From assembly GCF_024704835.1 (NCBI RefSeq), contig NZ_JAMXBE010000001.1:62001-126000 (forward strand): 64,000 nucleotides of DNA, given 5' to 3'. A program made the translations under genes and the position numbers. Origin of the DNA: Parapedobacter tibetensis. Lineage in GTDB: Bacteria; Bacteroidota; Bacteroidia; Sphingobacteriales; Sphingobacteriaceae. Below the pieces are notes generated by a model that saw only the letters and a list, made by a program, of their open reading frames with translations, ran no database searches and was not told the DNA's origin. Positions 27,463-64,000 of the stretch are shown here, in pieces (position 1 is the first letter of the stretch; the number at the start of each line of letters is the position of its first letter).

Positions 27463-28012
27463 ATGAAGAAATTACTATCCTTTATCTTTGTTGCCACCTT
27501 GTTATTTACGCTGCCGTCATGTGAGAAAAAAGACAGCGTATTTAAAGAAAACGCTTTCAGGGTGACATTTCTACGTGAATCGGATGGCTGCCCTGCCGGA
27601 CCTTTGGTCCAATTCAAAGCAAAAGACATTGGCCGATTGAAACAGTTTCTACCGGGAGGGTATACGGAAAACTATACAGGTTCCGGCATTATATCGGCCA
27701 TTAATTTGGGCAGCACATATGACCCGGGGAAACCATTATCATAAAAATCCGCCAACTCATTGCCGATGAAAACCATCCGTGCACAGCAAATATACCATGG
27801 TACCCGGGCGTTTACGTACTGGAAGCTGAAACCAATAAAGCAAATTTATGAATCATATATTTTCCAGGGTAGCAACTGCGTAATCTTACCAAAGTATAGT
27901 CATTTATAACGCTGATTTGGCCAACACACCCGATGGTTGGCACACCAAACTATCTCGGACGGGATAAGGTTATTATGTAGTCCCGGGAAAAGTAAACGAC
28001 TGCTATAGGTAA
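27463..28012 (+). pseudogene. Frameshifted lipoprotein gene remnant
   Basis: ATG 27463 starts a lipoprotein (FIFVATLLFTLPSCEKK, Cys20) that stops at 27744 after 93 residues. Protein-like sequence continues in another frame from about 27735 (IIIKIRQLIADENHPCTANIPWYPGVYVLEAE) to a stop at 27849-27851. Further fragments follow in shifted frames: FQGSNCVILPKYSHL, YNADLANTPDGWHTKLSRTG and GYYVVPGKVNDCYR, the last ending at TAA 28010-28012. The first shift lies near a GGGG run at 27725-27728. Several separate breaks argue for real decay; a sequencing error alone would explain only the first. Family unknown. The final TAA overlaps an 11-bp array. Confidence 0.6.
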
Positions 28013-28064
28013 GCCACGGTTTAGCCACCCTTCATCCACCTATTAGCCACGTATTAGCCACGTT
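28010..28064. repeat. 11-bp phase-locked array, five units
   Basis: Units TAAGCCACGGT, TTAGCCACCCT, TCATCCACCTA, TTAGCCACGTA, TTAGCCACGTT, each exactly 11 bp, share the core AGCCAC. The array lies 119 bases upstream of the MlrC-like gene. The rest of the gap to 28183 shows nothing else I can name. Confidence 0.85.
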
Positions 28065-29764: not shown

Positions 29765-29944
29765 TCCTGAGTGAATATAAAGCTGAGCCAAGGAGTTTGA
29801 CTGTTACCTTTGGCGAAATCATTTTATCCTCTCAAGTACGTATGGTTCAAGGTGTGTGAGAGAAATGTATGGAATCTAATGTGTGAATGCGCCCTAAAAG
29901 CACGGGGTATGCCCATGCAAAGCGCATGGCGTGCAGGTCGTACC
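29765..29944. other. Gap after the MlrC-like gene with a small hairpin
   Basis: No gene seen. CCATGC (29913-29918) and GCATGG (29924-29929) form a 6-bp hairpin 16 bases before the second 11-bp array. No T run follows, so it is not a typical terminator. Confidence 0.35.
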
Positions 29945-29988
29945 GTACTTTACCAGTACTTCAATAGTACTTGATATGTACTTTACAT
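29945..29988. repeat. 11-bp phase-locked array, four units
   Basis: GTACTTTACCA, GTACTTCAATA, GTACTTGATAT, GTACTTTACAT in perfect 11-bp register, core GTACTT. It lies 180 bases after the MlrC-like stop and about 80 bases before the promoter of the next gene pair. Confidence 0.85.
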
Positions 29989-55945: not shown

Positions 55946-56013
55946 TTTCACGCAAAGCTCGCTAAGACGCCTACGCTCTTGCCAAGTACGCCAAGGCTTT
56001 TCTTCCTGACTTT
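55946..56013. repeat. Dispersed repeat A, copy 2
   Basis: TTTCACGCAAAGCTCGC, AAGTACGCCAAG and TTTTCTTCCTGACTTT in the same order and spacing as 15804-15870, about 40 kb away. Confidence 0.75.
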
Positions 56014-56047
56014 CGAACTTCCCAACTTCCGGACTTTCAGACTTTCC
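56000..56047. repeat. 8-bp array, six units, abutting the hisIE stop
   Basis: TTCTTCCT, GACTTTCG, AACTTCCC, AACTTCCG, GACTTTCA, GACTTTCC in exact 8-bp steps, ending on the base next to the hisIE stop codon. It overlaps the end of dispersed repeat A. Confidence 0.75.
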
Positions 56048-56632
56048 CTACTGATGCCTATTCTCCAAATTTTTGGCGATGGCTTCCAATGGGATATTTT
56101 TCTCTCTCAACAACACCAATAAATGGAACAAGAGGTCGGATACCTCGTCGACAAAGCCCGAATCTTTTTCGGTCAATGCAGCAATTACGGTCTCAACGGC
56201 TTCCTCACCTACTTTTTGGGCGATTTTATTTAATCCACGTTCGTGCAATCTGTTTACATAAGAATCCACCGTAGGAAATTGGTAACGATTGTTAATGATG
56301 TTGACTAATTCAAAGATAAAATTCTGATTGTAGTCCGTATTGAAACAACTTCTGGTTCCCGTATGGCATGTCGGCCCTTTAGGCAATGCCTTGATCAATA
56401 TCGTATCATGGTCGCAATCGATATGTGTGCTTATGACGTCAAGGAAATGGCCGCTCTCCTCGCCCTTTGTCCACAGTCGGTTTTTACTCCGCGAGAAAAA
56501 GGTGACGCGTTGTTCTTCTTGGGTCTTCTGCCAAGCCTCTTCATTCATATGACCCAGCATCAATACTTCCAAGGTCTGGGCATGCTGTATGATGGCTGGG
56601 ATAAGGCCACCGCATTTTTCAAAATCCAACAT
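56048..56632 (-). CDS. hisIE: Bifunctional phosphoribosyl-AMP cyclohydrolase / phosphoribosyl-ATP pyrophosphatase
   Basis: A 194-residue fusion. HisI, about 1-105: EVLMLGHMNEEAWQKTQ, FFSRSKNRLWTKGEESGHFLDV, and metal-binding HIDCDHDTILIKALPKGPTCHTGTRSCF. HisE, about 110-194: SYVNRLHERGLNKIAQKVGEEAVETVIAAL and DEVSDLLFHLLVLLREKNIPLE. The two domains catalyse steps 3 and 2 of histidine synthesis. Last his gene of the minus-strand series, separated from hisF by an 8-bp array. Confidence 0.96.
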   Translation of the reverse strand: MLDFEKCGGLIPAIIQHAQTLEVLMLGHMNEEAWQKTQEEQRVTFFSRSKNRLWTKGEESGHFLDVISTHIDCDHDTILIKALPKGPTCHTGTRSCFNTDYNQNFIFELVNIINNRYQFPTVDSYVNRLHERGLNKIAQKVGEEAVETVIAALTEKDSGFVDEVSDLLFHLLVLLREKNIPLEAIAKNLENRHQ

Positions 56633-56649
56633 TTTTGCTTGTTCTTTTA

Positions 56650-56753
56650 TTTGCCGATTCGTTTATTTGCCGATTTGCTTATTCGTCTATTTGCTTTGTA
56701 CATCTTTACGAATCAGCGAATTCGCGCATTGGCGAATCAATACATCAGCTAAT
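56650..56753. repeat. 8-bp array, 13 units, with orientation switch, abutting the hisF stop
   Basis: From 56650, TTTGCCGA, TTCGTTTA, TTTGCCGA, TTTGCTTA, TTCGTCTA, TTTGCTTT follow in 8-bp steps. After GTACATCT the units read as the reverse complement type: TTACGAAT, CAGCGAAT, TCGCGCAT, TGGCGAAT, CAATACAT, CAGCTAAT. The array ends exactly at the hisF stop codon and fills nearly all of the hisF-hisIE gap. Confidence 0.8.
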
Positions 56754-57506
56754 CTACCTCACTTCAATTCCTTGTTTCCGGAGCTCATCTTTTAATTCAG
56801 GGATTAGTATTTCCCCGTAATGAAACACTGAGGCCGCCAATGCAGCATCCACATTGCTCTCCTGAAATACCTCCACAAAATGCTGCATATTGCCCGCTCC
56901 GCCGGAGGCTATGAGCGGTATGGACAGCTTATCGTTTATTTTTTTCAAAAAATCGCAATCGAATCCGTTTTTGGTGCCATCATGGTCCATGGAGGTCAAT
57001 AAGATCTCTCCTGCCCCACGGCTCTCCGCTTCCTTTATCCAATCTTCCGTTTCGATATCCGTTTTCAAACGCCCGCCATTGAGGTGGACATAATTTTTTC
57101 CGTCTACATGCCGGGTATCTACCGCCACCACCACAAATTGTATACCGAAAGCTTCCGCCATTTGGTTAATCAATCCGGGATTTCTTACCGCCGCCGAATT
57201 GATGGAAATCTTATCGGCGCCCGAATGTAATAACACATCGGCATCAGCCAATTCATTGATCCCCCCTCCAATTGTAAACGGGATGTTTACCTGCCGCGCT
57301 ACCGCCTTTACAAGTTCCGCAGTTGTTTTCCGCCGCTCATGCGTAGCGGTTATATCCAGGAACACCAACTCGTCCGCCCCCTGCCGTGAATATTGCCATG
57401 CCAGTTCCACCGGATCCCCTGCATCGCGCAAATCCACGAAGTTGACGCCTTTTACCGTCCGTCCGTCTTTTACATCCAAGCAGGGAATGATGCGTTTTGC
57501 CAACAT
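56754..57506 (-). CDS. hisF: Imidazole glycerol phosphate synthase, cyclase subunit
   Basis: A 250-residue TIM barrel: [33 protein letters not shown] with the catalytic Asp in [19 protein letters not shown] and [15 protein letters not shown] with the second catalytic Asp, and [12 protein letters not shown] for phosphate binding. With HisH it makes imidazole glycerol phosphate and AICAR. Six bases separate it from hisA. Confidence 0.97.
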
Positions 57507-63623: not shown

Positions 63624-63693
63624 TCAATAATCTAAAATCGTCAATCTAAAATCGTAAATCGTCAATCTAAAATCGTAAATCGTAAATCTAAAA
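63624..63693. repeat. 7-bp array, ten units, abutting the phoH stop
   Basis: TCAATAA, TCTAAAA, TCGTCAA, TCTAAAA, TCGTAAA, TCGTCAA, TCTAAAA, TCGTAAA, TCGTAAA, TCTAAAA in exact 7-bp steps, ending on the base next to the phoH stop codon at 63694-63696. Confidence 0.85.
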
Positions 63694-64000
63694 TCAAATG
63701 TCCCCATAAGCTTCCAATATCCGTCTGACTAGCTTATGCCGCACCACATCACCTCCATCGAGGTAAATGATATCTATTCCTTCGATATTTTCCAACAGCT
63801 TGAGCGCTGTATTCAGGCCCGACTGTTGTTTTTTTGGTAAATCTATTTGTGTAACATCGCCGGTAACGATAAATTTTGCCGTAGGACCCATGCGTGTCAA
63901 AAACATTTTCAATTGCATGTCGGTGGCATTTTGTGCCTCATCCAAGATGACAAAACAGTTATCGAGCGTTCGTCCCCGCATAAAGGCAAGGGGGGCCACT
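63694..64000 (-). CDS. phoH: PhoH-like ATPase, C-terminal part (5' end outside window)
   Basis: The last 101 residues of a PhoH-family P-loop NTPase: [62 protein letters not shown]. The Walker B-like FVILDEAQN is seen; Walker A lies beyond the edge. PhoH proteins are linked to RNA metabolism and phosphate stress, with unclear exact role. The codon at 63999-63997 is GTG but encodes an internal Val. Same strand as purC and the his genes. Confidence 0.93.

Follow-up and report, generated by a model that had tools for sequence, protein, structure and literature searches.

The DNA analysed here (hereafter the window, a stretch of 64,000 nucleotides) comes from a Parapedobacter (Sphingobacteriaceae), as judged by the identities of its histidine biosynthesis genes within the genus, with hisF being 89-94% identical across eight other Parapedobacter and hisIE 85% identical to its Parapedobacter defluvii counterpart. 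These two genes lie on the minus strand, and the 121-bp spacer between them (56633-56753) was found to be an imperfect 8-bp array throughout, whose unit switches strand mid-way. The features of the locus are as follows:

56754..57506, minus strand: hisF, the upstream gene, a 250-aa ORF (Pfam His_biosynth, E 1e-80) whose stop codon (56754) abuts the array
56705..56753, minus strand: upstream arm in mRNA sense, made of GATTCGCC-type units straight after the hisF stop codon (RCRAAT matches in the lattice view)
56695..56704, minus strand: switch, or loop, between the arms, being the gap from the last left-type to the first right-type unit
56633..56694, minus strand: downstream A-rich arm in mRNA sense, made of GCAAATAA/ACGAATCG-type units that run to the hisIE start codon (ATTYGY hexamers and base composition)
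56633..56753, minus strand: whole two-armed octad array, the complete hisF-hisIE spacer, 121 bp
56048..56632, minus strand: hisIE, the downstream gene, a 194-aa ORF (Pfam PRA-CH and PRA-PH) whose start codon (56632) abuts the array

Lag-8 identity over 56633-56753 is 0.52 versus a shuffle mean of 0.29 (p=0.0005, which is the floor for 2000 shuffles and is unchanged when the best of lags 3-16 is taken), with 0.60 at lag 16 and only 0.30 at lag 7, and both halves of the array are periodic when tested separately (p=0.003 and 0.0005). For inverted symmetry, ungapped arms of 35 bp or more reach an identity of 0.60 at best, versus a shuffle mean of 0.41 (p=0.003, 300 shuffles). The initial annotation had described an 8-bp array that changes strand in its middle, and this description holds, as periodicity and inverted symmetry both exceed those of shuffled sequences. 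On the plus strand the hexamer ATTYGY occurs exactly at 56649, 56657, 56665, 56673, 56681 and 56689, giving six units at 8-bp spacing, while RCRAAT falls on an 8-bp lattice at 56708, 56716, 56724 (one mismatch), 56732 and 56748 (one mismatch), the lattice place at 56740 reading ATACAT and thus being off consensus. The second half also matches ATTYGY at 56720 (exactly) and at 56728 (with one mismatch), because GCGAATTCGC is itself palindromic. The reported count of six plus six units is therefore right for the first half (six exact), but the second half holds four good units and one weak one. Likewise, the array does lie where it had been placed (56650-56753), although its real limits are 56633-56753, from the hisF stop to the hisIE start, and the repeat written as TTTGCCGA/TTCGTTTA is present, being the octad in another frame. 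The last 60 nt of the downstream arm are 58% A.

When the spacer was searched against its own genome it matched 37 places, itself included, and the better of these matches prove, by eye and on the 8-bp lattice, to be spacer arrays built from the same octads. Further searches brought the number of curated two-armed octad loci in this Parapedobacter genome to about 30, where loci were kept by eye from BLAST and pattern matches if lattice units were visible in a spacer, and where matches inside genes, single-unit matches and very short arrays (L027, L152, L161, L172 and others) were left out of the counts. The hisF-hisIE array is one copy of this dispersed, species-expanded family of two-armed octad arrays. 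Members sit mostly in spacers between co-directional genes and occupy whole spacers; they are mostly 65-175 bp long, and their octad units are highly variable between copies in the lattice view. Bulk 8-bp autocorrelation over 400 kb shows no excess, as the arrays are rare.

In mRNA sense the usual layout is a stop codon, a shorter ATTCGC-type arm, the switch, a longer A-rich GCGAATAA-type arm and finally a start codon. Among 26 arrays that were oriented by hand with the downstream gene to the right, both arms were present in 22 and the right arm had more units in 24, and the ATTCGC-first order was the better fit in 19, with six ties and one reverse case. Because this arm order reads alike on either strand, the A-rich arm comes last in every mRNA. 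In 30 arrays we also set direction without reference to the genes, by placing the longer GCGAAT-type arm on the right; L024 has no right-hand and L294 no left-hand gene call, leaving 29 for each side. The start of the right-hand gene faced the array in 26 of 29, a test that, arm order being strand-symmetric, measures only which arm is longer and so lowered our confidence in the retention reading set out below; the left-hand gene was co-directional in 25 of 29. In 24 of the 26 successes the start lies no more than 20 nt from the array, the other two having a called start further off (L284, 43 nt; L011, 326 nt). The three right-side failures were L010 (convergent genes), L362 (a weak array) and L175, whose start codon adjoins the array by eye and was missed by the caller. 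At least one array (C4:80441) is flanked by convergent genes, with no start codon to serve.

The initial annotation also placed both halves of the hisF-hisIE array in a single 8-bp register through the switch, and this is upheld, both halves lying on the 8-bp lattice. Of 22 family members, 19 have a register offset of 2-4 (mod 8) across the switch (p=2.7e-5 by a binomial test corrected x8; Rayleigh p ~1e-4). Two caveats apply to these figures: in a few arrays an arm's majority phase amounts to one or two hits, and units close to a palindrome at the switch might couple one arm to the other. The shared register looks like a feature of the family.

The expansion of these arrays is species-specific. 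The octad pattern, with one mismatch allowed, gave 34+16 matches in this genome (13+7 for the reversed-pattern control) and 0-4 in each of eight other Parapedobacter. At least one match was found in 56 of 201 genomes of the family, and in one other genus (g21) several genomes carry 5-11. By eye, 7 of 17 related-genome loci are two-armed in the same order (L187, L188, L189, L194, L201, L202 and L206), four of which belong to g21; most of the other related loci have one arm only, and L195 has the opposite order.

Between species, an array is either present or absent at the spacers compared. With lengths measured to the aligned first residue, the hisF-hisIE spacer in five of the eight other Parapedobacter is 5, 11, 11, 16 (P. 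defluvii) or 22 bp and has no array, and in the remaining three it is 43 bp (short, with similar words), 123 bp (a similar array) and 109 bp (different). At L004 there are 89 bp of array in this genome, and the genes overlap by 4 bp in all four relatives in which both were found, whereas at L003 the five relatives with the genes side by side have 15, 16, 24, 67 and 154 bp. At L003 and hisF the ends of the coding sequences are conserved; the upstream protein of L004 has different final residues. As judged from these differing spacers, arrays are gained and lost quickly.

What such arrays might do is suggested by the way translation starts in this phylum. Bacteroidetes mRNAs are described as being without Shine-Dalgarno sequences, and in Flavobacterium johnsoniae A residues at -3, -6, -12 and -13 together with low structure are reported to favour initiation (available text of Baez 2019, PMC6847099). 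For the start regions of our arrays we used 25 with a usable spacer, of which 23 have an ATG and at least 60 nt. The unpaired probability from -20 to +15 is 0.654 for the arrays, 0.403 when the spacer is reverse-complemented (25 arrays) and 0.524 in the background (150 ORFs), and the native spacer is the more unpaired in 23 of 25 arrays. Position -3 is A at a frequency of 0.70 versus 0.40, and position -6 at 0.70 versus 0.34 (23 arrays versus 312 ORFs), with start codons called mechanically in both array and background sets, which blurs the comparison and dilutes the A signal of the background. For hisIE the gain in accessibility is small once hisF sequence is included (0.54 versus 0.49 reversed), and stops close all three frames of the A-rich arm in 52% versus 33% in shuffles (n=25), a slight excess only. 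As with the A-rich, Kozak-like starts of Baez 2019 (PMC6847099), the stretch before the start codon is A-rich and unstructured, but as those starts are presented in the available text they reflect ordinary leader composition, whereas here the A-rich stretch is supplied by a dispersed repeat.

Our preferred reading, held tentatively and with a confidence that stops just short of even, is that the arrays are fast-turnover spacer fillers retained where they would keep the next start A-rich and open. In such a scheme the element would enter, or expand in, gene junctions that are short or overlap, acting as filler there, and would be kept where it places a long, A-rich and weakly structured stretch before the next start codon, an A-rich and open start region being what the ribosome prefers in Bacteroidota, where Shine-Dalgarno sequences are not used. 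The hisIE gene would then be initiated independently instead of by coupling to hisF. Judging from sequence, the arrays may thus affect expression, and an effect on relative hisF:hisIE expression through the A-rich start region is possible. Should this be true, the spacers of Bacteroidota operons would be rewritten in each species with periodic DNA that serves at the same time as translation start region, and expression ratios in conserved operons (e.g. hisF:hisIE) could shift without a change of gene or promoter.

The strongest rival to this retention idea is a neutral one, which we regard as a serious possibility although one we would not expect to prevail. Here the arrays would be selfish or neutral repeats of no use to the cell, whose spread or growth in non-essential spacers would come from slippage and repair, and the bias towards a longer A-rich arm before the start would reflect only the removal of harmful cases. 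It accords well with the lack of co-variation between an array's own arms, with the high variability of the octad units, with the presence of unrelated units in one and the same spacer in different species, and with the five of eight relatives that do without an array at hisF-hisIE. It accounts less readily for start regions that are more open (0.654 versus 0.524) and A-richer than those of background genes, which is a rough comparison.

The spacer between pheT (the Pfam-supported upstream gene) and the gene that follows it (102 aa, with no Pfam match) is one position occupied by unrelated arrays in different species. This spacer is periodic in seven of nine species (p<=0.03 each, these being single-test values over nine tests), with best lags of 8, 7, 7, 7, 14, 7 and 14, and the two non-periodic spacers are the shortest, at 24 and 29 bp. 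Octad-like words are found in three of the species (G001, G007 and G008), while at least four have units unrelated to the octad: G002 (GTACGAG/GTTAGAA), G003 (GTTGAAA, with an inverted arm), G004 and G005. As far as sequence comparison can tell, octads common to many loci would argue for spreading or conversion within a genome, and unrelated units in one spacer for repeated independent filling. The recurrence at pheT with unrelated units would point to convergent rewriting, not to the descent of one insertion.

A wider survey of his spacers gave a similarly varied picture. Of 80 named loci with both his genes, 38 have spacers of 45-400 bp. Periodicity reaches p<0.02 in 11 of these spacers (lag 7 in seven, lag 9 in two, and lags 5 and 8 in one each), and 20 fold with z below -2, some of which are other kinds of hairpin element. 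The hisF-hisIE spacer of Daejeonella, Pedobacter and Mucilaginibacter is filled with other, unrelated hairpin or heptamer elements (L073, L080, L088, L099, L102 and L108). A 400-kb peak scan in each of four species, which misses degenerate octads including the hisF-hisIE array, placed intergenic peaks mainly at lags 7 (24), 11 (16) and 14 (11), with lag 8 (5) hardly above the remaining lags (0-4), and in this genome it returned only two 8-bp arrays, of another kind. The window itself carries two intergenic arrays of 11-bp period (28012-28063 and 29941-29972), lag 11 ranking second among the intergenic periods of the four species sampled.

Taken further, one could imagine that Bacteroidota have an undescribed process by which 7- or 8-bp arrays, many of them two-armed, are written into operon spacers time and again. 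Dialects would vary by species and spacer, and selection would keep those arrays that leave long, open, A-rich starts, which would provide a fast and portable uncoupling of operon genes in a phylum that makes no use of Shine-Dalgarno sequences. Although attractive, this more general proposal strikes us as rather improbable in its full form. A question raised by the retention reading is why 7-8 bp arrays, though their units differ, should land or grow in the same spacers over and over.

REP elements are linked to a Y1 transposase. No transposase or copying mechanism for the arrays was found, and none of the nine Parapedobacter genomes has an intact Y1 transposase: PF01797 has a single match in this genome, with three internal stops, and none in the other eight. 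The broken gene lies at about 1500-1797 of L385 (G000:C34:46216-46512). A live Y1/REP system was rejected, since the sole Y1 gene in nine genomes is broken. The arrays share with the REP/RAYT system the presence of many dispersed extragenic palindromes in one genome, but in the available text on that system (PMC3733652) REPs are 20-40 bp in length, whereas the octad arrays are periodic and mostly 65-175 bp, and the Y1 transposase, intact in REP/RAYT, is represented in this genome only by the single copy with three stops.

Short-period intergenic repeats have been seen elsewhere. The cyanobacterial STRR (short tandemly repeated repetitive sequences) are degenerate heptamer-type arrays in intergenic DNA. 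Our literature searches returned one close match only, namely MacGregor 2015 (PMC4679880), and two-armed octad arrays are not described in the literature searched. The available text of that paper reports direct repeats of the TAACTGA heptamer, in forward orientation shortly before start codons, from Beggiatoaceae, cyanobacteria and five Bacteroidetes. Some relatives have shorter, repeat-free spacers, and one set is reversed right after a stop codon. The paper proposes the heptamers as a protein-binding array. The octad arrays resemble these repeats, as so described, in being short-period, mostly intergenic and placed before start codons with a preferred direction (26 of 29, 24 within 20 nt), and in having relatives with shorter spacers free of the repeat, both at hisF-hisIE (5 of 8) and at L004 (4 of 4, with overlapping genes). 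They differ in that TAACTGA is an exact 7-bp direct tandem, whereas the octad unit is 8 bp, degenerate (RCRAATNN) and of another sequence. Unlike the TAACTGA repeats in that account, moreover, 22 of 26 octad arrays have two arms of opposite polarity, and at hisF-hisIE and several other loci they fill the spacer from stop to start. We have filed the octad arrays as a variant of the heptamer-repeat kind, set apart above all by their regular two-arm design.

A protein-binding role could be extended to the octads, with each 7-8 nt unit binding one single-strand RNA- or DNA-binding protein (of the S1, cold shock or Csr type). The 7-8 nt step recurs across different dialects, the arrays are sited before start codons, and a cold shock protein is reported to bind heptamer repeats (as cited in the available text of PMC4679880). 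The units vary by species and spacer, however, so that only the period could be recognised, and we consider a binding array unlikely.

Less likely still, to the point of being very improbable, is a tuned regulatory hairpin, in which a selected fold would set the hisF:hisIE ratio by attenuation, processing or masking. The initial annotation had proposed that the transcript could form a long imperfect hairpin, and the array does fold better than shuffled controls, with z of -2.4 on the mRNA (minus) strand (0 of 200 shuffles equally good) and -3.0 on the plus strand (1 of 200). Averaged across 21 arrays, folding z comes to -2.7 when read as mRNA and to -2.9 for the opposite strand, and it falls below -2 in 14 and 13 of them, respectively. 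Since the fold is equally strong on both strands, as for any DNA palindrome, it does not point to RNA. In an arm-swap test on 21 of the 26 arrays, the energies of an array's own left and right arms were no better than those between arrays (duplex p=0.86; hairpin gain p=0.79), while planted controls, in which each right arm was derived from its array's left arm by altering 10-40%, were picked up in every case (p<=0.0004). Pairing selected within each copy, or the copying of one arm from the other, would be expected to make own arms fit best. As own arms do not fit best, complementarity is a property of the family consensus, and we infer that the arms are complementary through a palindromic consensus and not through copy-by-copy selection to pair. 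A hairpin selected pair by pair was rejected on this test, which gave no evidence of selection on the fold of any given copy and also makes a recent local inversion or snap-back copying less likely. Hence the long hairpin stands as a fold that exceeds shuffles but not as a pairing peculiar to these two arms, and the idea that a specific hairpin controls hisF:hisIE is not sustained. An intrinsic terminator or attenuator was rejected as well, since a search of 56550-56850 for terminator-like sites (a G+C-rich stem followed by a U run) gave no match on the transcribed minus strand; the sole plus-strand match (56593-56609) lies inside hisIE. Nor did Rfam, in which the window has no match at the gathering threshold and six array loci have none at E<=0.5, place the arrays in a known structured RNA family.

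Finally, the strand switch in mid-array had raised the idea of a local inversion within a one-way array, which can be dismissed as extremely improbable unless each copy inverted on its own. Both arms occur in 22 of 26 arrays across the genome, with hardly any departure from one order, and 7 of 17 related-genome loci show them by eye, so that the switch is part of the element itself. The array is more likely to be a harmless filler, or a landing strip provided ready-made for the ribosome, than a regulatory switch or an inversion scar.

Other elements lie inside or beside arrays. A conserved element of about 65 bp (ACCCGACGCAGGAGGGTTCATTGATGCC...AATCAATAAT) has 12 copies in this genome (E<=5e-6), which by eye lie inside or beside octad units. 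These copies (L355-L366) are at C1:442430, C6:36389, C10:47126, C12:33818, C12:42962, C12:134753, C12:166008, C12:214930, C15:377, C17:35568, C34:146488 and C2:168932, the copy at L366 being reversed relative to the next gene. The element is expanded in this genome alone of nine, with four other Parapedobacter giving only matches of about 39 bp, and Rfam matched none of the four loci scanned (L002, L007, L011 and L015) at E<=0.5. In the spacer ahead of the RNase Y gene (L209 and L210), a block of about 200 nt that is well conserved in all nine Parapedobacter and ends in GCGG and a T run precedes either an array or other filler. Two loci of this block were scanned with no Rfam match at E<=0.1, and from its sequence the block looks like a putative small RNA gene.

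Within the window, the spacer between hisIE and a WD40-repeat gene (55956-56047) holds a different two-block 8-bp array of ACTTTCCG-type and CGCAAAGA-type units, and an array resembling it lies near C1:40192 of the same genome. At 63629-63695 and just below there is a 7-bp array of AATCTAAAATCGT units, adjoining a small element that ends in ATCAATAAT and resembles a core found within octad arrays.
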